Source of the DNA: Streptacidiphilus neutrinimicus
Lineage (GTDB): Bacteria; Actinomycetota; Actinomycetes; Streptomycetales; Streptomycetaceae
DNA: 45,212 nucleotides
NCBI RefSeq assembly: GCF_000787815.1
Contig: NZ_BBPO01000004.1
Coordinates: forward strand, 118,815 to 164,026
Reading direction: 5' to 3'
In this document: in pieces, positions 32,504 through 41,798 of the stretch
Layout: each line of letters begins with the position of its first letter
Numbering within the stretch: the first letter of the stretch is position 1
Position numbers and translations under genes: made by a program
The notes under the pieces: model-generated
Databases searched by the model: none
What the model saw: the letters and a program-made list of their open reading frames with translations, nothing else
What the model was told of the DNA's origin: nothing

Positions 32504-33328
32504 TCAACGGCCGGGCGTGGGCTTGGCCTGGAGTACCGGCGAGTCCTTCCCGAACACCGGGTGGACGCTGGACTGCTGGATCCGGGCGGCATCCTGGCGG
32601 ATCCCCGCGAGCGCGCCGTAGAGCGTCGAGCCGGGGCACAGGGTGCAGTCGGCGTCGGTGTGGCCGGAGAGCACCGCGAAGTTCGCCCGGCTGCCCACCT
32701 TGTAGCGGCTCTCGGAGTCGGTACAGGTCAGCGTCGTCGAGGAGAGGGCGTCGACGCCGTGCAGGCTCAGCTTCCAGGCGACCAGCGCCCCGATGGCCTT
32801 CAGCATGGCGGCGGTCGGCGTCGCGCCGTCGGTGAAGGTGCCGATCGCGGCGATGCCCGCGGTGTTGATGTTGAAGCCGCTGCAGTGGGCGCCGATCACG
32901 GGCCTGTCGACCCCGCCGTGGCGTCCCTCGTAGATCGTGCCGAAGCGGTCGACCAGGAAGTTGTAGCCGATGTCGTCCCAGCCGCGCCGGCCCGTCTGGT
33001 CGTCGTGGATGCTCCAGATGATGCTCGGCACCTCGCTGAGCGCGTACTCGTTGCCGCTGTCGGTGTGGTGCACGAAAACGGCCTTCACCGCCTGCGCGTA
33101 GCGCGGTGGGGGCAGCGGACGGGTGGGGGCGACGGTGTCCCAGTCGGCGCGGCGCACGATGGCGGGCTGGTCGGCGACCCAGTGCAGGTCCGCCGGTTGG
33201 GCCCAGGTGCGGGCGGGTGCGGTGTCCGGACCGGCCGCGGCGGAGGCGCGCGCCACCACCGCGGTGACGCCGGCGACCAGGGTGGCCTGCGCGGCCCGAC
33301 GAAGGATCAGACGCCGTTCGACGTGCAT
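32504..33328 (-). CDS. Secreted N-acetylmuramoyl-L-alanine amidase, PGRP type
   Basis: 274 residues. It has a twin-Arg-like signal (MHVERRLILRRAAQATLVAG followed by an Ala-rich stretch ending ARASAAA). The PGRP/amidase_2 domain has zinc ligands in VKAVFVHHTDSGNEY and LSGHTDADCTLCPGSTLYGA (His and Cys), with the catalytic Tyr in RGWDDIGYNFLVDRFGTIYE. It hydrolyses the bond between muramic acid and L-Ala in peptidoglycan outside the membrane. The domain is common in Streptomyces and is full length here. Confidence 0.9.
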   Translation of the reverse strand: MHVERRLILRRAAQATLVAGVTAVVARASAAAGPDTAPARTWAQPADLHWVADQPAIVRRADWDTVAPTRPLPPPRYAQAVKAVFVHHTDSGNEYALSEVPSIIWSIHDDQTGRRGWDDIGYNFLVDRFGTIYEGRHGGVDRPVIGAHCSGFNINTAGIAAIGTFTDGATPTAAMLKAIGALVAWKLSLHGVDALSSTTLTCTDSESRYKVGSRANFAVLSGHTDADCTLCPGSTLYGALAGIRQDAARIQQSSVHPVFGKDSPVLQAKPTPGR

Positions 33329-33377: not shown

Positions 33378-33992
33378 TCACCGGCGTGTCGTGTCCGCGC
33401 CCGCCATCCGACGTACCTTGCCCGTGCCGAGCGCGACGTAAGCCCGCGGCCGCATCGGATCCTCGGCGCCGCGCCGCGACAGCAGCGCCAGCTCGATCAC
33501 CCGCGCGGAGTACGCGCCGAGGCGGACGGCGCACTCGGCGGCCACCCGTCGCGGATCGCCGGTCCGGCCGAGGGACAGATGCGGGGTGAAGACCTCGAAG
33601 CGCCCGCGACAGCGTGGGAACCGCTCGGCCAGCTCCGCGTGCAGCGCCCGCCACCCGCCCGCGCCCGACGCAGCCGGGTCGAGCCAGATGGTGCTGGACC
33701 CGCGGTGCCGGAAGGTGCGGATCCCGGCGAGCCGGACCGGGAACGGAGCCACTCCGCCGAGCGCCTCGGCGACCAGGGGAGCGGCCAGCTCGAAGTCGGA
33801 CTCGGGCACGAACCCGAAGAGCACGTTGACGTGCGGCGGCCAGCGCCGGATCTGCGGGTCGTGTTCGCGGCGCACCGCCTGGACCGGCGGCCACAGCTCG
33901 TCGGGTGGGAGCCAGGCCAGGGCCGTCCGCGGCGTCGGCGCCACGTCGAGGACGCCTCCGGCCGGTGTGGGCCGGGCGTTCGGATCGGTCAT
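33378..33992 (-). CDS. 2'-5' RNA ligase/cyclic phosphodiesterase-like protein
   Basis: 204 residues of the 2H phosphoesterase fold. The two catalytic H-x-S/T-like motifs are [11 protein letters not shown] (the first, with Asn in place of Thr/Ser) and [13 protein letters not shown] (the second). [20 protein letters not shown] precedes the first. The first motif is degenerate compared with HxTx, as in several actinobacterial members. The natural substrate is unknown; the family cleaves 2',3'-cyclic phosphates or joins RNA ends. The start is the ATG; the site upstream is weak, and a GTG in the upstream frame is possible. Confidence 0.78.
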
Positions 33993-34056
33993 CGGCCCGC
34001 CGTTCCCCGCGGCGGCTGCGGCGGCTCGCGGCGGTGGTGTCACGCGGCCGCGTGGT

Positions 34057-34170
34057 CCCGGGATGCCGGAGTACCCACGTTCCCGGCATCCCGGGTGAGG
34101 AGCCGCGAGGAAACCTGTCCATGCCCTCGCGACACGGGGCTCCGGCCGCTCAAAGCGGAGTCCCCGCAGA
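34057..34170 (-). other. Strongly structured leader or small-RNA candidate
   Basis: Three hairpins stand in a row on the minus strand. One has five-base arms at 34146-34158. One has seven-base arms CGCGAGG/CCTCGCG at 34104-34131, extended by GAGC/GCTC. The last is a perfect 13-base stem (34057-34069 with 34083-34095). A sigma-B-type promoter match lies just before the first. It could be a terminated small RNA, the leader of the RNA ligase-like gene, or a terminator of the redox operon upstream. No protein-coding gene fits here. Confidence 0.4.
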
Positions 34171-34176
34171 GGCCAC

Positions 34177-34201
34177 GTACCCACGCTGGCCTGCGCAAAT
34201 C
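34177..34201 (-). promoter_or_regulatory. SigB-type promoter match in front of structured region
   Basis: On the minus strand GATT, 15 bases, GGGTAC: a full consensus match about 185 bases before the RNA ligase-like gene and directly before the three hairpins. Chance occurrence is possible. Confidence 0.35.
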
Positions 34202-34253: not shown

Positions 34254-34874
34254 TCACCTGCCGAAGTGGCCCGGCGCCCAGCCGGAGACCAGATGGACGC
34301 CCAGCAGCGCGACCGCGAGCCCCGCGCCCAGGGCCGCCGCGAGCAGCGTCCAGCGCAGACCGCGTCCGGCCACCGCGTCGCGGCGCAGCTCCGAGCCGAG
34401 CAGCCGTGGCAGCCGCCACAGGTACACCAGCACGTGGATCCCGGCCAGGCCGACCCAGAGGACGAACGAGGCCTTGTGCAGGAACAGCACCTGGTCGGCC
34501 GTGCGGCCGCGGCCCAGCAGGGCCAGCGTGATGCCGGTGGCCAGCACGGCCGCCGACGTCAGCACCAGCAGCGGGCCGAGCAGGCGCAGCGGCATCGCGG
34601 GCGCGCCCTTGCGCCGGTAGGCGTCCGCGCCGGTGTAGTACCGGAAGGTCCGGTAGCAGGTCGAGCCGATCTTCAGCGCGACCGGGCCGGTCAGCATCAG
34701 ACCGACGAAGAAGTGCACCGTGAGCAGCTGCGTCAGCGACAGGATGGTGAATCCCTGCACGGCGAAGAGCACCAGCAGCACCGTGCCGGTGGCGGCCGTC
34801 AGCCGTTCGTTGCCCTCGGGGCCGCGCGCTCGGCGGTGCTCCTGACGGGTGGCGGCGGCGGGAGCAGTGGTCAC
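34254..34874 (-). CDS. Cytochrome b561-like four-helix membrane protein
   Basis: 206 residues from a GTG with a GGAAGGA site. Four membrane spans: ATGTVLLVLFAVQGFTIL, LTVHFFVGLMLTGPVALK, LLGPLLVLTSAAVLATGITL and a span in KASFVLWVGLAGIHVLVYLW, plus a final one (WTLLAAALGAGLAVALLGVH). Histidines in TVHFF, FLHKAS and AGIHVL are positioned to bind one or two b haems. It is the last gene of the redox array, ~120 bases after the ferredoxin gene. It probably passes electrons across or within the membrane; partners are unknown. Confidence 0.72.
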   Translation of the reverse strand: MTTAPAAATRQEHRRARGPEGNERLTAATGTVLLVLFAVQGFTILSLTQLLTVHFFVGLMLTGPVALKIGSTCYRTFRYYTGADAYRRKGAPAMPLRLLGPLLVLTSAAVLATGITLALLGRGRTADQVLFLHKASFVLWVGLAGIHVLVYLWRLPRLLGSELRRDAVAGRGLRWTLLAAALGAGLAVALLGVHLVSGWAPGHFGR

Positions 34875-34996
34875 CGTGCATCCTTCCGGGGGCGCGTGCA
34901 GCGGACCTGCGCGCAGGACTCGGACTCGTGCGGCGAGTCTGCCGGACCGGTGACTAAGAACTCGTTCAGTTCGTTCGCCGTGCACCGCCCCTGACG

Positions 34997-35221
34997 TCAG
35001 GGGCGGGCTCGCTCCAGACGCAGCGCCAGTACCGGGCAGGCGGCGACGGCGCGGCGGGCGTGCGCGGCGAGCTCGGGCGGGACGGTCGCGGAGTGGACGA
35101 TCGGGAAACCCCACTCGTCCAGCGACAGGAGCTCCGGCAGCAGCTCGGCGCAGGCCCCGTGGCCCTCGCACGCGATGCGGTCCAGACGCAGCGACTGTTC
35201 GTTCGATCGGGTCAGCGCCAT
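34997..35221 (-). CDS. Three-cysteine ferredoxin
   Basis: 74 residues. Cluster ligands are Cys18 and Cys24 in IACEGHGACAELLPELL and Cys62 in AVAACPVLAL. The spacing C-x5-C-x37-C-P is that of the small actinobacterial ferredoxins that carry one [3Fe-4S] (or incomplete [4Fe-4S]) cluster, often partners of P450s or dehydrogenases. Here it follows the NuoF-like gene by five bases, so it is most likely the electron carrier of that protein rather than of a P450. Confidence 0.85.
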   Translation of the reverse strand: MALTRSNEQSLRLDRIACEGHGACAELLPELLSLDEWGFPIVHSATVPPELAAHARRAVAACPVLALRLERARP

Positions 35222-35226
35222 GCCCG

Positions 35227-36588
35227 TCACCTCCACTCGTCCGGGCCGGGGACGGAGCCCGTCGGCACGTGCAGGACGGGCTCGTGGTGCACCGCCGGGC
35301 AGGGGCCGTGGTGCAGATGGCGCTCCACGTCCGCGGCGAAGGTGCGCAGCGCGGTCGCGGCGAAGCGGGAAGCGCCGTCCGGGTGGCGGCAGGCCCCGCG
35401 TCCCGCCAGCAGGCCGACGCGGCGCTCCAGGCGCCTCAGCCCGTCCGGGTCGAGCCGGCCGAAGGCGAGCGCGGCGAAGTCCTCCGCGACGGCCGGGAGG
35501 CCGAAGCGGCACGGACCGCACTGCTGCGCGCCGTTGCGCGCCAGGAACGCCAGCACGGACGCGGTCTCCGCGAGGCCGCAGGCGCGCTGCGGCAGCGCGA
35601 CCAGCACACCCGCGCCCGGGCCCGCGCCCAAGGCGGCGAGGTCCTGCTTGGTGAACGGCGTCGGCAGCGCCTGCTCCGCCGGGAGCCAGCTGCCGAAGAA
35701 GCCGCCGACCAGCACCGCGGACAGCGGCTCGCTCGGCCCGCCGCCGTGGGCGAGCAGGCGGCCGATCGGCGCGCCCATCGGCGCCTCGTAGACGCCGGGG
35801 TGCCGCACCGCCCCGCCGAGGGTGACCAGCGTGGTGCCGGGCGCGTCCGGGGTGCCCGCCTCGCGGTACCAGGCCGGGCCGTAGCGGGCGATCAGAGCCA
35901 GGTGCGCCAGCGTCTCGACGTTGTCGATCAGGGTCGGGCGCTTGCCGACGCCCTTCTCGAACGGGCGCGGCGGCGTGGACAGCGGCCGGGCGTCGCCGCC
36001 GTTCAGCCAGCGCACCAGCGCGCTCTCCTCGCTGGAGACGTAGTGGTGCGGCAGCTCGTGCAGGCGCACCGGCAGCGGGTCGACGCGGCGGCGCTCGCGC
36101 TCGGCCAGGGCCGCGTGCAGCTCGTGTACCTGGTGCTGCCGGGTGCGGGCCACGCACAGGTGTGCCTCGCGCGCGCCGACCGCCCGCGCGGCCAGCGCGA
36201 TCCCGTCCAGGACCAGGTGCGGCGCGAGTTCGAGCAGGGTCGCGTCCTTGGCGCTCGCGGGCTCGCTCTCCATGGCGTTGGCGACCACCACGGCCGCGCC
36301 GCGGCCGTCCGCGACGGCCTGCAGTTTGCGCGCGGTGGGGAACGCCGCGCCGCCGCGGCCGGTCAGACCGGCCTCCTCGACGGCGTTGATCAGCGGCGAC
36401 GCGTGTCCGCGGCGGGCGCGGTCGAGCGGGAGCGGGCCGTAGCGGTCCAGGTGGTCGGTCAGGTCGGCTGCCCGTCCGGTGGTGAACCAGCCCGACAGCA
36501 GCCGGGTGCCGTGCGGTCCCGGCGCGGAGCCGTCGGCGGGGACGGCGGGCATCGGCCGCGTGGACTCGTGGACGCTCTCGGCGGTCAT
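35227..36588 (-). CDS. NuoF-like flavin/Fe-S oxidoreductase subunit
   Basis: 453 residues. The FMN/NADH domain is recognised by GLTGRGGAAFPTARKLQAVA and NAMESEPASAKDATLLELAP. Then come FEKGVGKRPTLIDNVETLAH, an SLBB-like segment (LVTLGGAVRHPGVYEAPMGA) and the C-terminal N3-type Fe-S region. That region has only three of the four usual Cys: Cys357 and Cys360 in QQCGPCRFG and Cys400 in GRGACRH; the first Cys of the NuoF quartet is Ala. The start ATG overlaps the ferric-reductase-like stop (ATGA). It likely transfers electrons between a pyridine nucleotide and the ferredoxin or the membrane partner; direction is unknown. Confidence 0.85.
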   Translation of the reverse strand: MTAESVHESTRPMPAVPADGSAPGPHGTRLLSGWFTTGRAADLTDHLDRYGPLPLDRARRGHASPLINAVEEAGLTGRGGAAFPTARKLQAVADGRGAAVVVANAMESEPASAKDATLLELAPHLVLDGIALAARAVGAREAHLCVARTRQHQVHELHAALAERERRRVDPLPVRLHELPHHYVSSEESALVRWLNGGDARPLSTPPRPFEKGVGKRPTLIDNVETLAHLALIARYGPAWYREAGTPDAPGTTLVTLGGAVRHPGVYEAPMGAPIGRLLAHGGGPSEPLSAVLVGGFFGSWLPAEQALPTPFTKQDLAALGAGPGAGVLVALPQRACGLAETASVLAFLARNGAQQCGPCRFGLPAVAEDFAALAFGRLDPDGLRRLERRVGLLAGRGACRHPDGASRFAATALRTFAADVERHLHHGPCPAVHHEPVLHVPTGSVPGPDEWR

Positions 36589-37418
36589 CGGGTCGCCTCC
36601 TTCGTCGGTGTGGGCGGCGTGGCGAGCGCGGCCGTCGCTGTTCCGGGGGTGGTCGTTCCGGGCGTGGTCGTCCCGGGTGTGGTGGTTCCGGGTGTGGTGG
36701 TTTCTGGGAGCGGCGACGCCGCGGCCGGTGCCGGGCCCTCGGCGCGGTGCGACCAGCCGGGCGCCAGCGGGCCGACGTGCAGGAAGGTGACCAGCGCGAG
36801 CGGGACGGCGAGGGTGGCCGCGCCCGCCGCCACGCGGACGAGGGCGTGTCCCGGTCCGGCGCGGAACAGCCGCCACCACACGGCCAGCACGACCACGCCC
36901 AGGCAGAGCGCGTACAGGGCGAGCTGCAGGGTGTCCTTGGTGTCCGTGCCCGTGCCGGCGGCGTGGAAGACGGCGATCGGCCACGAGCCGTAGGCCAGCC
37001 AGTGGATCGCCTTCCAGCGCCGCTGCCCGATCCGCAGGCGCAGGCCGGCGGTCGCGCTGGTCAGCGTGACGGCCAGGAGCAGGTCGAAGGCGACCGTGCC
37101 GAGGCCCAGCCAGAGCGTGCGGTAGCCGGAGGTGAAGGGCACCAGCGTGATCCACCAGCCGAGGTGGACGAAGGAGTCCATGACGGCCGTGACGATGTGC
37201 AGGGCGAGGAAGACCAGCGTCAGAAACGCCAGGTTCCGGTGCAGGTTGGTGACCTCGAACCGGGCGACGGTGCGGGGCGCGTGCCGTCCGCCCACGGCGA
37301 TGCCGAGGGCGACGGTGGCCGTGAGCAGCACCAGGGCGACGGTGCCGCCCGCGCGGGTGGCGTACCAGAGCGGGCTGGGTGCGGTGCTCGCGGCGAGCAG
37401 AGCGGTGGTGGGGGTCAT
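36585..37418 (-). CDS. Ferric-reductase-like haem membrane protein with TTTPG tail
   Basis: 277 residues with six or seven spans, e.g. TVALVLLTATVALGIAVGG and AFLTLVFLALHIVTAVMDSF. His pairs in NLHRNLAFL/LALHIVTAV/SFVHLGWW and KAIHWLAYGSWPIAVFHAAG are placed as in ferric reductase-like domains binding two b haems. No NAD(P)H/FAD domain follows; the NuoF-like protein may replace it. The C-terminal ~45 residues are outside-facing or cytoplasmic Pro/Thr repeats (TTTPG five times). ATGA overlaps couple it to apbE and the NuoF-like gene. Confidence 0.8.
   Translation of the reverse strand: MTPTTALLAASTAPSPLWYATRAGGTVALVLLTATVALGIAVGGRHAPRTVARFEVTNLHRNLAFLTLVFLALHIVTAVMDSFVHLGWWITLVPFTSGYRTLWLGLGTVAFDLLLAVTLTSATAGLRLRIGQRRWKAIHWLAYGSWPIAVFHAAGTGTDTKDTLQLALYALCLGVVVLAVWWRLFRAGPGHALVRVAAGAATLAVPLALVTFLHVGPLAPGWSHRAEGPAPAAASPLPETTTPGTTTPGTTTPGTTTPGTATAALATPPTPTKEATR
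36641..36708 (-). repeat. 15-bp tandem repeat encoding TTTPG units
   Basis: Four to five copies of a 15-base unit (plus-strand form like TTCCGGGTGTGGTGG) with a few substitutions, inside the ferric-reductase-like gene. Units are in frame, so copy-number change would only lengthen or shorten the tail. Confidence 0.85.
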
Positions 37419-38434
37419 GCCGCGCCTCGCTGGTTCGGGGTGTCGGTCGGCGCGTCGGCCGGGGCGTCGTGCTCGGCGTGGTGCGGGGCCTCGCCGGGCA
37501 CGTCCTCGGGCCAGCCGCCGACGCGGAGCACGGTGCCGTCCTCGTTGACCAGGCGGGCGGGCAGGCCCGCGTGGCGGAGAGCTGTGGGGGCCTCGGGGCC
37601 GAGGATCATCGCGGCCGTGGCGGCTGTGTTCGCCGCGACGCACGAGGGCGCCGCGACGGTGACGGTACGCCAGCAGACGGCCGGGTTGCGGCCGGTGCGG
37701 GGGTCGACGATGTGGTGCAGGCGCTGCCCGCCGCGCTGCCAGGCGCGCACGGCGGAGCCGGAGGTGGCCAGGCCGCCGGTGTGCACGGCGACGACGGGGG
37801 AGTCGGGCGCGGGCGCGCGGTGGTCGTCGGCGATCGAGACACGCCAGCCGCCGGCCGGGGTCCCGCCCGCGACGGACAGGTCGCCGCCGAGGTTGACCAG
37901 CACGCCGCAGCGCAGTGCGGCGGCGATCCGTTGTGCGGCCCGGTCGGCGGCCCACGCCTTGGCGGTCGCGCCGAGGTCCAGCGCGGCCCCGGCGGGCAGG
38001 CGCACGCGCCTGCGGGCGGCGTCCCACACGACGTTCCGCCAGCCGGGCGCGGGCGAGGTCGCGGGCCCGCCGAGCTGCTCGGGGCGCAGCGAGGCGAAGG
38101 TGCGGTCGTAGCCCAGGCCGATGACGGACGCGCCGACGGTCGGGTCGACCAGGCCGCCGCTCTCCGCCGCCGCCTGCCACGCCACGTCCAGCGCCTCGGC
38201 GAGCAGCGGTCCGACGACCACGGCCGCGCCGTCGGCCGCGTTGACGCGGGACAGCTCGGAGTCGGTGCGGAACCGGCTGCAGGCGGTGTCGATCGCCGCG
38301 AGCTCGGCGTGCAGCAGGCGCAGGGCGGGCGCGAGTCGCGTCGGGTCGGTCACCAGCAGGTGGGCGGTCGTCCCGAAGACGGGGAAGCTCGCCTGGCCCG
38401 GAGGCTGGTCCTGATCATGGGAGGGGGTGCTCAT
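37415..38434 (-). CDS. apbE: FAD:protein FMN transferase (ApbE)
   Basis: 339 residues. Family motifs are AIDTACSRFRTDSELSRVNA, AALDLGATAKAWAADRAAQR, VLVNLGGDLSVAGG, LHHIVDPRTGRNP and SCVAANTAATAAMILG. ApbE covalently attaches FMN to a Thr/Ser of exported or membrane redox proteins. No FMN-binding-domain substrate is encoded nearby. No signal or lipobox is visible at the N-terminus (MSTPSHDQDQPPGQASFPVF). The usual acidic residue before the last helix (ADA) is replaced by AAN. It is ATGA-coupled on both sides. Confidence 0.9.
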   Translation of the reverse strand: MSTPSHDQDQPPGQASFPVFGTTAHLLVTDPTRLAPALRLLHAELAAIDTACSRFRTDSELSRVNAADGAAVVVGPLLAEALDVAWQAAAESGGLVDPTVGASVIGLGYDRTFASLRPEQLGGPATSPAPGWRNVVWDAARRRVRLPAGAALDLGATAKAWAADRAAQRIAAALRCGVLVNLGGDLSVAGGTPAGGWRVSIADDHRAPAPDSPVVAVHTGGLATSGSAVRAWQRGGQRLHHIVDPRTGRNPAVCWRTVTVAAPSCVAANTAATAAMILGPEAPTALRHAGLPARLVNEDGTVLRVGGWPEDVPGEAPHHAEHDAPADAPTDTPNQRGAA

Positions 38435-38886
38435 GAGCCACCCGTGGTCGTGTGGGTCGGCTGCGGCGCCGACGGGGGAGCGACGCTCGTCGGGGGCGGC
38501 GCGACGGGGGTCGGCGGGACGTAGGGCGCGGCCGAGCTGTGCACCGGCGCCGGCACCGGGGAGACGCTGTGGGTGCGCTTCGGCGTCGCCGAGTGCGTGG
38601 CCGGAGTCTGGGTGTGCGTGGGCGTCGGCTTGGGCGCGGCGGTCGCACTCGTGCTCGGGGACGCGGAGGGGGTGGCCGAGGACGTCGAGGGTGAGGGACT
38701 CGGCGTCGTCGCGGCGCCGGTCGAGCCGCCGCCCGTGGTGGAGGCCTGGGCGTAGCCCGTGGCCAGCGCGACCGAACCGACCGCGGCGGCTGCGGTCACC
38801 CAGCGCGTGGTGTTTCCGACGCGGCGTACCGACCGGTCGCGGCGGTGGGCCCGGGCGCGGGCGGCGGGCTGCTCGGGGGCGTCCAT
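38431..38886 (-). CDS. Small single-span Ser/Thr/Pro-rich membrane or exported protein
   Basis: 151 residues. After a basic leader, NTTRWVTAAAAVGSVALATG forms one span or signal sequence ending YAQAS. The rest is a low-complexity Ser/Thr/Pro stretch (TPSPSPSTSSATPSASPSTS) then His/Thr/Pro, likely outside the cell. It is coupled to apbE by ATGA and heads the electron-transfer array. A second protein of the same plan is encoded divergently at the other end of the locus (TRW...LGLGYAHA). A STGAATT sequence just after the span is loosely like an FMN-attachment site; this is speculative. Confidence 0.75.
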   Translation of the reverse strand: MDAPEQPAARARAHRRDRSVRRVGNTTRWVTAAAAVGSVALATGYAQASTTGGGSTGAATTPSPSPSTSSATPSASPSTSATAAPKPTPTHTQTPATHSATPKRTHSVSPVPAPVHSSAAPYVPPTPVAPPPTSVAPPSAPQPTHTTTGGS

Positions 38887-38959
38887 CGGGGCGTCTCCTC
38901 GGGTTCGGCGGGCGGCTACCGCACCAGCCTGCACACCCGGCACCCGGGATTTCGGTTCA

Positions 38960-38986
38960 GGAAGTCTTAAGAACCGGTAAACATCC
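38960..38986. promoter_or_regulatory. Element A, candidate response-regulator site before small-protein/apbE operon
   Basis: On the minus strand it reads GGATGTTTACCGG then TTCTTAAGACTTCC, 73 bases before the operon's first ATG and just after the sensor-kinase stop. About 22 of 28 aligned positions match element B before the other small-protein gene, in the same orientation relative to the gene. Shared bases include GGAT, TT, ACCGG, AAGAC and TTCC. Confidence 0.6.
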
Positions 38987-39001
38987 GTTTTTGTACGGAG
39001 A

Positions 39002-40483
39002 TCATCCGGTGGGCGTCCCGGTGCCACCGCCGTTCGCGCCCGAGTCGCCGCGCTCGGCCCGCTCGCCGCGTTCGCCCCGCTCGGTCCGCTCGCCGCGCGG
39101 GGGGCGGCGGTCGCGGCGGACGGGACGGGCGGTGCGTGCCTCGGAGGGGCCGGCCGGAAGGGAGAGGCGCACGGTGAGCCCGCCGCCGGGCGTCTCCTCC
39201 AGCGTCGCCTGACCGCCGTTCGCGGTGACCAGCCGGTGCACGATGGCCAGGCCGAGCCCGGTCCCGCTCTCGCGCCCCGTGTCGAAGCGCCGGAACGCCC
39301 GCTCGCGCGCGGACTCGTCCATCCCGGGCCCGTGGTCGATCACCGCGAGGGTGACCGTGCCGCCCTCCGCCGGGCGGCTGGTGCGGATCTCCACCTGGCC
39401 GCCCGCCGGGGCCGCCTCCAGCGCGTTGGCGAAGAGGTTGTCCAGCGCCTGCTCCAGATCGCCCGGCCCCATCGACGCGGTCAGCTCGGCCGGTCCGCTC
39501 GCGGTGAAGCGCACCTCGCGTTCGGCTGCCACCGGCTCCCACGCGGTGATCCGGTCGGCGACGACGCGGTCCAGGCGCACCGGGGTCGCCCGGGGCACCG
39601 AGTTCTCGGCGCGGGCGACCGCGAGCAGGCCGTCGACCATCCGGGACAGGCGCGCGATCTCCTCCTGCGCGCCCGCCAGCTCCACGGCGAGGTCGTCCTC
39701 CACGTCGGCGGCCAGCAGGTCCAGCCGCAGGCGCAGCGCGGTGAGCGGGGTGCGCAACTGGTGCGAGACGTCGGCGATCACCGCGCGGTGGCCGTGGATC
39801 AGGTTCTCGGTCCGGGCCGCCATGGCGTTGAAGGTGGCCGCGAGCCGGCGCACCTCCGGTGGGCCGTTCGTGACCGCGGCCCGCGCGCCGAGGTCGCCCT
39901 CGCCCAGCCGTGTGGCCGCGTCGTCGAGCTCGACCAGCGGTCGCCCGACCCAGCGGGCCAGCCGGGTGGCCACGAACAGGGCGGCGGCCAGCGCGCCGAG
40001 CGCGCAGAGGCTGAGCCAGCCCCAGACCGTCAGCAGCTGGTGGTTCAGGTCGTCGGTCGGCCGGGAGTAGACCAGCGCGCCTGAGGCCGGGACGGTGTCG
40101 TCGACCGGGATCGCCATGGTCAGCCACCCGTCGTTCTGCCGGGTCTGTGCCTTGCCGGTGCGGAGCACGTCCGCGACGGCGGAGGGCGGCAGGGCGGAGG
40201 CGTGGCACGGGGTGGAGAGGATCAGCGTGCCGTGCTTGTCGTAGACCAGGGCGCAGTCGCCGTGCCGGCCGGCGTTCGCGACCTGATCGGCGGCCTCGGT
40301 GTCGGGGTGGTTGTCGGAGAGGTGCTCCTCGGCGGCGGAGGCGACGGCGCGGGCACGCGCGGCGGTCTCCTCGCGGAACGAGTCGTGCTCGCGGTCGGTG
40401 ATGGAGATGCCGAGCGGCACCACGGCCAGCACCAGCAGGGCGACGATCAGCGCCCCCACGCTGAGGGCGATCCGTCGGGTCAC
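39002..40483 (-). CDS. Sensor histidine kinase
   Basis: 493 residues. First span at about residues 5-29, an extracytoplasmic sensor of ~120 residues, second span about 150-173, HAMP (RWVGRPLVELDDAATRLGEG), then HisKA with the phosphorylated His241 in VIADVSHQLRTPLTALRLRL. The ATPase part has N box QALDNLFANALEAAP, G1 VIDHGPGMDES and G2 GTGLGLAIVHRL. The C-terminal tail is an Arg/Gly/Glu repeat. The GTG start overlaps the response-regulator stop. The sensed signal is unknown; the redox operon downstream suggests a redox or metal cue. Confidence 0.92.
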   Translation of the reverse strand: MTRRIALSVGALIVALLVLAVVPLGISITDREHDSFREETAARARAVASAAEEHLSDNHPDTEAADQVANAGRHGDCALVYDKHGTLILSTPCHASALPPSAVADVLRTGKAQTRQNDGWLTMAIPVDDTVPASGALVYSRPTDDLNHQLLTVWGWLSLCALGALAAALFVATRLARWVGRPLVELDDAATRLGEGDLGARAAVTNGPPEVRRLAATFNAMAARTENLIHGHRAVIADVSHQLRTPLTALRLRLDLLAADVEDDLAVELAGAQEEIARLSRMVDGLLAVARAENSVPRATPVRLDRVVADRITAWEPVAAEREVRFTASGPAELTASMGPGDLEQALDNLFANALEAAPAGGQVEIRTSRPAEGGTVTLAVIDHGPGMDESARERAFRRFDTGRESGTGLGLAIVHRLVTANGGQATLEETPGGGLTVRLSLPAGPSEARTARPVRRDRRPPRGERTERGERGERAERGDSGANGGGTGTPTG

Positions 40484-41298
40484 GACCGGACGTCCGGCGC
40501 GGGGGAGCCGGAGCCGCGGTGCTCCTCGCCCTCGTCCTCCGCGGCCTCGTCCTCCGTGGCGTCCGCGCCCGCGGCGTCGGCGTCTGCTGCGGCGTCCGCG
40601 AGCTCGGAGAGGTCGCCCAGGCGGAAGCCGCGCCCGTAGACGGTCTCGACCAGGCCCGGCGCGCCGAGCTTGCGGCGCAGTGCGGCGATGTGGACGTCGA
40701 GCACCTTGGTCGGTCCGTACCAGTGGGCGTCCCAGGCGCGTTCGAGTATCTCCTGCCGGGTGACCACGCGGCCTGGGTCGACCGCGAGACAGTGCAGGAT
40801 GTCGAACTCCTTGGGGGTGAGCGCGGTCTCCTGGCCGCCGACGGTGACGCGCCGGGTGCGCGGGTCCACCGTGAGCGGCCCGTGCACGATCAGCTCCACG
40901 CCGCTCGGGCGGGTGCGCCGCAGCACCGCGCGCAGCCGGGCCAGCAGCTCGGCCAGGCCGAAAGGCTTGACCAGGTAGTCGTCCGCGCCCTCGTCGAGGG
41001 CGGCGACGCGGTCCGCCTCCTCACCGCGCGCGGTGACCACGATGATCGCCGCGTCGGACTGGCGGCGCATGCGGCGGCAGACCTCCACGCCGTCGACGTC
41101 GGGCAGGCCCAGGTCGAGCAGGACGACGTCGGGGACGGGCCGCGCGCCGAGCGCCTCCGCCCCCGTCCCGGCGCAGCGGACGGCGTAGCCGGCGCGGGTC
41201 AGCCCGCGCACGAGGGAGTCAGCGATGCCCTGGTCGTCCTCGACGACCAGCACGGACAGCGCGGCGCTCGCCACTGCGGTGTCGGTGACCTGTGCCAT
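40480..41298 (-). CDS. OmpR-family response regulator
   Basis: 272 residues. Receiver: VLVVEDDQGIADSLVRGL, phospho-acceptor Asp62 in VVLLDLGLPDVDGVEV, IIVVTARGEEADRVA and DDYLVKPFGLAEL. The winged-helix DNA-binding domain includes LTPKEFDILHCLAVDPGRVV and TKVLDVHIAALRRKL. An acidic tail (EDEAAEDEGEEH) follows the wing. It is the first gene of the minus-strand array, paired with the sensor kinase. It likely binds elements A and B, one of which lies 57 bases upstream of its own start. Confidence 0.93.
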   Translation of the reverse strand: MAQVTDTAVASAALSVLVVEDDQGIADSLVRGLTRAGYAVRCAGTGAEALGARPVPDVVLLDLGLPDVDGVEVCRRMRRQSDAAIIVVTARGEEADRVAALDEGADDYLVKPFGLAELLARLRAVLRRTRPSGVELIVHGPLTVDPRTRRVTVGGQETALTPKEFDILHCLAVDPGRVVTRQEILERAWDAHWYGPTKVLDVHIAALRRKLGAPGLVETVYGRGFRLGDLSELADAAADADAAGADATEDEAAEDEGEEHRGSGSPAPDVRS

Positions 41299-41354
41299 TG
41301 GCCCAGCGTAGAGCCTGACCCGAGGTGCTCCGGGCCGATGCGGGGGACGGCCCG

Positions 41355-41382
41355 GGATCTTAACCGGATTTGAAGACGTTCC
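41355..41382. promoter_or_regulatory. Element B, candidate response-regulator site in the divergent promoter
   Basis: Plus strand GGATCTTAACCGG then ATTTGAAGACGTTCC, 38 bases before the plus-strand small-protein ATG and 56 bases before the response-regulator start on the other strand. It matches element A in the orientation facing a small-protein gene, allowing one-base gaps. Confidence 0.6.
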
Positions 41383-41420
41383 GTACCGTCGGTTGACGGG
41401 GCTTCACGCACACTGGAGAC

Positions 41421-41798
41421 ATGAGCGGGAAGCCCGCCTTCCGTGCTTCCCGGCGTTCCGCGCTCCAGGGGGAGGAGGCCGCATTGTCCGCCGCCCATCC
41501 GTACCGACCGCCCGCCCCGCCCGGTCCCTCCGAGCGCCGCAGCGCCGGGCTGCTCCGCGTCCGGCGGGTGACCCGGTGGACCCTGGTCGGCTCCGCCGCC
41601 TCGGCCCTGGTGCTGGGGCTCGGCTACGCCCACGCCCTGCCCGACCTCGCCTCCCTGCTCCCGTCGCACGCCTCCGACGGCGGCGGCACCAGCGACTTCA
41701 CCGGCGGCTCCGGCGCGAACTCCGGCGGCGGGGCCCAGGCCCCCAGCCTGCCGGGCGCGGGCTCCGGCGGCAGCCACACCTCCACCGGCGCGTCCTGA
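41421..41798 (+). CDS. Small single-span Gly/Ser-rich protein, partner of the 38431-38886 gene
   Basis: 125 residues; GGAG lies five bases before the ATG. The basic leader is followed by RVTRWTLVGSAASALVLGLG and YAHALPD, the same plan as the small protein heading the apbE operon. The outside part is Gly/Ser-rich (GGTSDFTGGSGANSGGG). It lies divergent to the response-regulator gene with element B between them, so both small proteins probably answer to the same regulator. Function is unknown. A TTGACG hexamer at 41393 has no matching -10 at normal spacing. Confidence 0.72.
   Translation: MSGKPAFRASRRSALQGEEAALSAAHPYRPPAPPGPSERRSAGLLRVRRVTRWTLVGSAASALVLGLGYAHALPDLASLLPSHASDGGGTSDFTGGSGANSGGGAQAPSLPGAGSGGSHTSTGAS

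Follow-up and report, generated by a model that had tools for sequence, protein, structure and literature searches.

The closest described counterparts of the locus analysed here are the MsrQ-like flavinylation systems, in which the flavin mononucleotide (FMN) transferase ApbE occurs together with a six-helix, two-haem membrane protein of the PF01794 type and which are distributed broadly in Actinobacteria (Meheust et al. 2021, PMC8238504). Our locus occupies positions 34254–41798 of a 45,212-nt stretch of Streptacidiphilus neutrinimicus (contig NZ_BBPO01000004.1), hereafter the window, and encodes an ApbE, an MsrQ/ferric-reductase-like protein, a NuoF-like protein, a ferredoxin, a two-component system, a multi-helix membrane protein and two small proteins, A and B. 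The MsrQ-like systems include a NuoF-like donor on the side of reduced nicotinamide adenine dinucleotide (phosphate), NAD(P)H, in 31 clusters, and typically hold a gene for an FMN_bind-domain protein (PMC8238504), whereas the window locus has no such gene and carries domain-less C-terminal tails instead. The first screen of PMC8238504 kept only genes with a signal peptide or a lipidation site; since the window ApbE shows neither, loci of its kind may have been missed. The same survey states that genomes with orphan apbE genes remain and that less prevalent substrates have yet to be identified.

ApbE attaches FMN to the last Ser or Thr of the motif D-x-x-[S/T]-G-A-[S/T], in which replacement of Asp by Ala has a minor effect and seven residues suffice (PMC12052999). 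The Flavin-tag (Tong et al. 2021, cited in the review PMC12052999) relies on the sufficiency of a short acceptor motif at a protein end for FMN attachment, and the artificial seven-residue tag works best at a terminus. That tag is man-made; the window version would be natural, placed on a membrane tether and served by its own ApbE class. The nearest published case among these sources is that of the Lactococcus FMN_red proteins (Huang et al. 2024, PMC11334425), which bear ApbE-linked acceptor motifs on an unstructured C-terminal extension. Their extension belongs to a folded flavin-binding domain, whereas no such domain was found in the small proteins of the window. Within our own comparison set (loci designated L, genomes G), membrane-anchored FMN_bind proteins (e.g. 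L101, L162–L172 and L174–L178) also combine an N-terminal Arg, a helix, a flexible-looking linker, a D-x-x-S-G-A-[S/T] site and an adjoining ApbE but, unlike the small proteins of the window, carry a folded FMN_bind domain and go with a different ApbE class (class II, see below). Domain-less C-terminal ApbE substrates were found described nowhere in the literature searched, which included the consulted parts of PMC8238504, PMC11334425, PMC12052999 and PMC10339131; the gene lists of PMC8238504 may contain such loci. The view of the initial annotation, that no system with this exact set had been described, holds in part: the pairing of an MsrQ-like protein with a NuoF-like donor is published (PMC8238504), which makes the module less new, and the tail substrate looks new. 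Judged by sequence, the module looks like a variant of a known system with a new type of ApbE substrate, a natural flavin tag at the tip of a membrane-anchored leash.

Conserved C-terminal tails of the small proteins

At this locus, a specialised class of ApbE is accompanied by small one-helix proteins; their tail fits the acceptor motif and shows much stronger conservation than the linker before it. Small protein A (38431–38886, minus strand, 151 residues) and the divergently encoded small protein B (41421–41798, plus strand, 125 residues), both delimited by reading of open reading frames (ORFs) and both predicted ApbE substrates, share one architecture consisting of an Arg-rich N-terminus, a single helix (VTAAAAVGSVALATGYA in A), a linker of Pro, Ser and Thr, and a C-terminal tail. 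Neither gave a meaningful family match in Pfam or NCBIfam, and neither matched FMN_bind (PF04205). Protein A ends in the heptamer H-T-T-T-G-G-S (38434–38454, minus strand), whose terminal Ser is, from the sequence and the published motif, the predicted FMN acceptor, and a reading of the sequence shows that protein B ends in H-T-S-T-G-A-S (41775–41795, plus strand). The two ends, TGGS-COOH and TGAS-COOH, match an [S/T]GA[S/T]-like acceptor motif, and relatives have SGAS, SGGS and TGAS. The Asp at the first place of the motif is replaced by His in the window tails and is present in five relatives (DSTSGAS twice, DATSGSS, DSTSGSS and DTTSGGS); the small protein of L126 has DSFSGGT two residues from its end. 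The small proteins had been proposed as candidate ApbE substrates or partners from the sequence alone, and the conserved C-terminus, not pointed out at that stage, backs the proposal strongly.

The comparison drew on 80 stretches (78 around NuoF-like matches in other genomes, one around the second NuoF-like gene of the window genome and one around its own FMN_bind/ApbE locus, L101), on nine further stretches around other ApbEs, and on a phylum sample of 30 ApbE loci, each from a different one of the best-matching genomes, with that of the window included. The latter came from 396 genomes, of which 167 had an ApbE match at E ≤ 1e-10, the 30 loci being the best-matching of these. Removal of identical ApbEs left 79 loci. 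A family-wide search with small protein A itself (23 of 101 genomes, E ≤ 0.001) was set aside, several of its weak matches being, or possibly being, other Ser/Thr-rich proteins (e.g. L023); because such matches are partly unreliable, small proteins were located by their neighbourhood.

A short ORF with a hydrophobic helix directly precedes apbE in 67 of the 79 loci. Four loci were excluded from the count, namely L101 and L124 (FMN_bind or FMN_bind-like neighbour), L122 (spurious 50-residue ORF) and L160 (a protein of a different type); in eight more, the filter detected no small ORF. Among these eight, a tail was present upstream in L056 and L130, downstream in L128 and on a divergent gene in L047; contig ends truncate L068 and L093, the ORF of L069 is out of frame and L123 has no tail. 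The 67 small proteins end exactly in [ST]G[AGS][ST] in 42 cases and carry this motif within four residues of the end in 48. Shuffling of the post-helix regions (1000 runs) gave means of 0.42 (maximum 4) and 2.05 (maximum 7), respectively, and low-complexity chance was accordingly dropped as the origin of the tails. In the linker background the motif occupied 32 of 4661 positions (0.7%). With the stricter [ST]G[AG][ST], 39 exact ends and 44 within four residues were counted (n = 67), and 55 of the 67 have Ser as their last residue.

Sequences near the C-terminus stay alike while the linker changes, as in HTTTGGS, HTTSGGS, QTTTGGS, HTTSGAS, HTTTGAS and PVTSGNS. Counted from the C-terminus, identity among 29 window-type relatives was 0.67 for the last six residues, 0.33–0.36 for the next twelve, 0.10–0.20 at more distant positions and 0.10–0.14 beyond residue 24. 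The codons of the tail vary, with all four Gly codons in use and Ser encoded by TCA, TCG and TCC, so that conservation is of the protein and not of the DNA. We also considered, and rejected, the TCATGA overlap with the start of apbE as the cause of the terminal Ser: the overlap fixes the last base of the codon only, TCG or TCC is used in 20 of the 42 exact tails, and small protein B has the same kind of end without any overlap with an apbE start.

Several variants of the small proteins were seen. In family f53 (L086, L088, L089, L092 and L129) the small protein preceding ApbE carries a Cys-flanked tip at its end, e.g. CYTTPSGSTVCS or CYTSPSGNVTCY, perhaps a disulfide loop holding the acceptor. 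In five loci (L149, L151, L157, L158 and L159) ApbE is preceded by two consecutive small proteins, each with a hydrophobic stretch; the one farther upstream has an acidic end and the nearer one a TGGS-like tail. Extra ORFs with tails lie downstream in L051, L053, L055 and L056 and upstream in L070 and L072, so that a single ApbE may have two or three substrates.

A class of ApbE associated with the tails

The ApbE of the window (37415–38434, minus strand) matches PF02424 with E 2.5e-51 and 175.2 bits, against a cut-off of 25.6. It keeps the motifs TSG, with the Ser, and HHIVDPRTG, with the His, and has Asn at the position of the triad Asp in an alignment with 4xdt. By the shape of the Pfam alignment, ApbEs fell into two classes, aligning in one piece (class I, the tail class, to which the window protein belongs) or in two (class II). 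Among the matches listed, none of 56 class I proteins lay within 2 kb of a Pfam FMN_bind match versus 55 of 61 class II proteins. The acid next to the active site differs as well: class II has Asp in 21 of 21, and class I has Asn in 56, Glu in 15, Asp in three and a gap in two (n = 76). On a tree of 97 ApbEs the labels "tail" and "FMN" require one change (shuffled mean 20.1; support 90/89), the labels standing for ApbE class and not for a verified tail, except in L124, which was put in the FMN group for its neighbour. No helix-plus-tail ORF was found in the 21 class II (FMN_bind-type) loci read, and 17 of them hold an ORF with a Dxx[ST]GA[ST] site and a hydrophobic N-terminal stretch.

The tails follow ApbE also among the NuoF-anchored loci. 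With the pattern [ST]G[AGSN][ST], a helix-plus-tail ORF was found in 42 of 52 loci with ApbE (counting L101, not itself a NuoF locus, and L063, a duplicate of L010) versus one of 35 without ApbE (three of these, L012, L068 and L093, being cut by contig ends); L004–L008 were left out, L042–L046 being their genomes. The sole ApbE-less locus with a tail, L084, belongs to genome G310; a tail-class ApbE is encoded at another place in that genome (L126). In L052, a single case, a small protein in a locus without ApbE ends in SAYRAS. Conversely, the lone class I ApbE of L128 has a tail protein downstream, and neither a haem-protein nor a NuoF-like gene was found in its 15-kb stretch.

As the initial annotation had it, no FMN_bind-domain substrate lies near the window ApbE: Pfam detected none in the locus, and the only Pfam FMN_bind match of the genome lies on another contig, beside the other ApbE of that genome. 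An ApbE without any Pfam FMN_bind match was present in 11 of 68 genomes, and none of the 11 had a match to DUF2271 or DUF3570. A small helix protein adjoins ApbE in eight of them (G310, G458, G499, G636, G644, G652, G667 and G675), G499, G636 and G644 having Cys-flanked tips only.

Proposed mechanism and alternative explanations

In most loci ApbE begins at its domain, without an N-terminal hydrophobic segment, and is therefore most likely cytosolic; the absence of a signal peptide was judged by N-terminal hydrophobicity and not by a signal-peptide program. In the small proteins, the Arg before the helix and the few-charge linker favour, by the positive-inside rule, a tail on the outside. Many window-type small proteins have an AxA-like site after the helix (GYAQA, GYAHA).

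We consider it probable that the locus encodes a redox-regulated module for the export of electrons across the membrane, in which a tethered covalent flavin serves as the mobile carrier. Cytosolic ApbE would attach FMN from flavin adenine dinucleotide (FAD) to the terminal Ser of the small protein, the Arg-rich N-terminus would stay inside, and linker and tail would be placed outside; if the AxA-like site after the helix were cut, the small protein would be released instead. NAD(P)H would feed electrons into the NuoF-like protein; the ferredoxin and then the pair of haems in the MsrQ-like protein would relay them to the FMN at the tip of the leash, for delivery in the envelope. The sensor of the two-component system has a conserved Cys pair, and the system would switch the module according to the redox state of the envelope. 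The order of electron flow, the transcription of the genes as one unit and the FMN on the tails are what we infer from these features. Beyond the window, the balance tips slightly towards a phylum-wide set of domain-less flavoproteins, i.e. intrinsically disordered leashes tethered to the membrane, each with a natural flavin tag at its extreme C-terminus, modified by a dedicated ApbE class and acting as a flexible electron relay across a thick envelope. If so, the orphan ApbEs of many actinobacteria would gain a substrate, covalent FMN held on a disordered tether would carry electrons without a protein pocket, and a natural counterpart of the laboratory flavin tag would exist. The proposal names a concrete substrate class with a precisely predicted acceptor residue and offers a handle on electron movement beyond the membrane in actinobacteria.

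Several observations weigh against this interpretation. A cytosolic ApbE would require the export of FMN-loaded tails; the FMN_bind-linked ApbE of the window genome (L101) likewise lacks a signal peptide, so the question of export arises there too, and a twin-arginine route for the loaded tail would be a guess. Studied ApbEs favour Thr over Ser as acceptor (PMC12052999), whereas all 42 exact tails end in Ser and never in Thr. Class I ApbEs mostly lack the triad Asp; Ser and His are each kept in 74 of 76. The class I loci L122 and L123 have no tail protein, and the class I ApbE of L124 adjoins an FMN_bind-like protein missed by Pfam. Among the 30 ApbE loci of the phylum sample, the strict motif occurs in 12 small proteins only, that of L140 lying inside a Cys-flanked tip, and the remainder comprise five looser [ST]-x-[AS]-S ends, four Cys-flanked tips, eight others and one locus with none; the flavin reading is therefore firm for the window relatives and several families and weaker elsewhere. 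Kinship among the sequences inflates all counts.

The missing signal peptide of ApbE can also be accommodated by a tail that is flavinylated but stays cytosolic, where an FMN leash would couple the NuoF-like protein or the ferredoxin to the inner haem and so replace the missing FAD domain. No export of a loaded tail would then be required, and the haem protein indeed has no flavin domain of its own. We nevertheless regard this arrangement as quite unlikely, since the Arg-rich segment before the helix and the few-charge linker place the tail outside by the positive-inside rule, many window-type helices end in an AxA-like site, and the FMN_bind proteins of the same bacteria start similarly, with Arg and then a helix, the ApbE beside that of L101 also lacking a signal peptide.

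Alternatively, the conserved C-terminus might be a binding or sorting tag, recognised by ApbE, the haem protein or a protease, while ApbE modifies another protein. This would suit the lineages in which the Gly of the motif is replaced and the terminal Ser kept (SKAS, SHAS, SRAS, TRSS and THHS), as well as the lack of the triad Asp in most class I ApbEs. It is unlikely, though still worth bearing in mind, as some families have two to four residues beyond the motif (TGGSHP, SGGTGD, TGGSAPPP and SGASGAYR), so that a free C-terminus is not what is conserved, and the match to the acceptor motif, together with the split from FMN_bind-linked ApbEs, is hard to explain otherwise. An ordinary MsrQ-like flavinylation system, with the FMN_bind protein encoded elsewhere in the genome as the substrate and the small proteins unrelated to it, appears very improbable. 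The genome does have one Pfam FMN_bind match, but a separate ApbE adjoins that protein. In eight genomes that carry tail-type loci, Pfam detects neither FMN_bind nor DUF2271 or DUF3570, and the small proteins and class I ApbEs travel together.

Conservation of the gene block

With the NuoF-like protein as query, 12 loci were retrieved from the genome collection. Five Streptacidiphilus loci and Streptomyces sp. NRRL F-5122 have the regulator, kinase, ApbE, haem protein, NuoF-like protein, ferredoxin and last gene in identical order, and in Streptantibioticus silvisoli (L010) and Streptomyces neyagawaensis (L011) the full set apart from the last gene was found. All eight of these named loci have a small ORF between the kinase and ApbE genes, and four of them gave a sequence match to small protein B. 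In other families of the phylum the block occurs in shorter forms (small protein, ApbE and haem protein, often with the NuoF-like protein and ferredoxin). Co-occurrence across actinobacteria had been named beforehand as a check of the grouping, and it was found, with the block in order in Streptacidiphilus, Streptomyces and Streptantibioticus and the shorter versions beyond. NuoF-like matches at E ≤ 1e-50 are present in 194 of 297 genomes of the family, many being relatives of only 40–47% identity, and no ApbE stands beside these more distant relatives in the loci fetched.

Two further arrangements were observed. In L097–L121 except L101, mostly from the family to which the window belongs, the NuoF-like protein and ferredoxin occur without ApbE and without tails, often with a haem protein of 29–39% identity and up to 554 residues. 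In L122 and L123 a class I ApbE is followed by a ferredoxin; no haem protein was found in these stretches and no FMN_bind match in the genomes.

Electron-transfer proteins and sensor kinase

The families of the nine genes of the locus were checked with Pfam and NCBIfam. The MsrQ/ferric-reductase-like, haem-type membrane protein (36585–37418, minus strand) matches Ferric_reduct at E 2.4e-5 and 24.8 bits, below the 28-bit cut-off, and DUF4405 at 0.027. His 60, 74, 139 and 152 are invariant in 12 sequences and, by analogy, may form two bis-His haem sites. Its structural model has six long helices at a mean predicted local distance difference test score (pLDDT) of 66. A Foldseek search with the model returned no significant match; NOX5, STEAP1 and DUOX1 appeared among unrelated proteins (best E 0.59), and these fold matches are only suggestive. 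The family search detected no NAD(P)H/FAD domain in the protein itself, in agreement with the initial annotation.

The NuoF-like flavin/Fe-S protein (35227–36588, minus strand; Complex1_51K, E 4e-34) keeps, in comparison with chain 1 of Thermus complex I, much of the FMN/NADH-site motifs GRGGAAFPT, MESEP and SSEESAL, Glu residues included. The first Cys of the four-Cys N3-type cluster is Ala in the window and is Cys in none of 85 relatives (Ala in 81; Ser, Val or Thr in four), while the other three Cys are present in all 85. On this ground the protein is termed NuoF-like and not NuoF, and across the clade the cluster must be bound differently. The small ferredoxin (34997–35221, minus strand; Fer4_15, E 5.9e-15) is of the Cys-x5-Cys...Cys-Pro kind.

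The OmpR-type response regulator (40480–41298, minus strand) and the sensor histidine kinase (39002–40483, minus strand) were assigned by the Pfam and NCBIfam searches. The N-terminal part of the kinase holds two Cys 16 residues apart (CALVYDKHGTLILSTPC in the window), a pair kept in 29 of 31 related loci, the exceptions L094 and L095 being distant. By the usual topology of such kinases the pair would lie outside, which suggests redox sensing.

The last gene encodes a multi-helix membrane protein (34254–34874, minus strand) for which GTG at 34874 is a more likely start than the mechanical ORF start at 35171. It has no Pfam family at E ≤ 1, so that the earlier name "b561-like" finds no footing there. 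The gene occurs in only part of the relatives; His 54, 133 and 147 are invariant in eight sequences, and the product is possibly a second cytochrome b. Its model is of low confidence (pLDDT 55.7), too poor to assign a fold, and a fold search with it gave no significant match.

Layout of the locus and flanking genes

All nine genes, eight on the minus strand and one divergent, were located where the initial annotation had placed them, and the tight ATGA coupling it described extends over three pairs: small protein A and ApbE, ApbE and the haem protein, and the haem protein and the NuoF-like protein. The overlap of regulator and kinase reads GTGA. The ferredoxin starts 5 bases past the stop of the NuoF-like gene, and the intergenic distance is 115 bases ahead of small protein A and 122 bases ahead of the last gene. 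No promoter-like site was found, and one terminator-like site was detected versus 0.8 expected. The genome is actinobacterial, with a size of 8.4 Mb and Streptacidiphilus species as its closest named relatives. Beside the block, the ORF at 33378–34184 presumably encodes a 2H phosphoesterase, and that at 32504–33328 what we take to be a peptidoglycan-recognition amidase.

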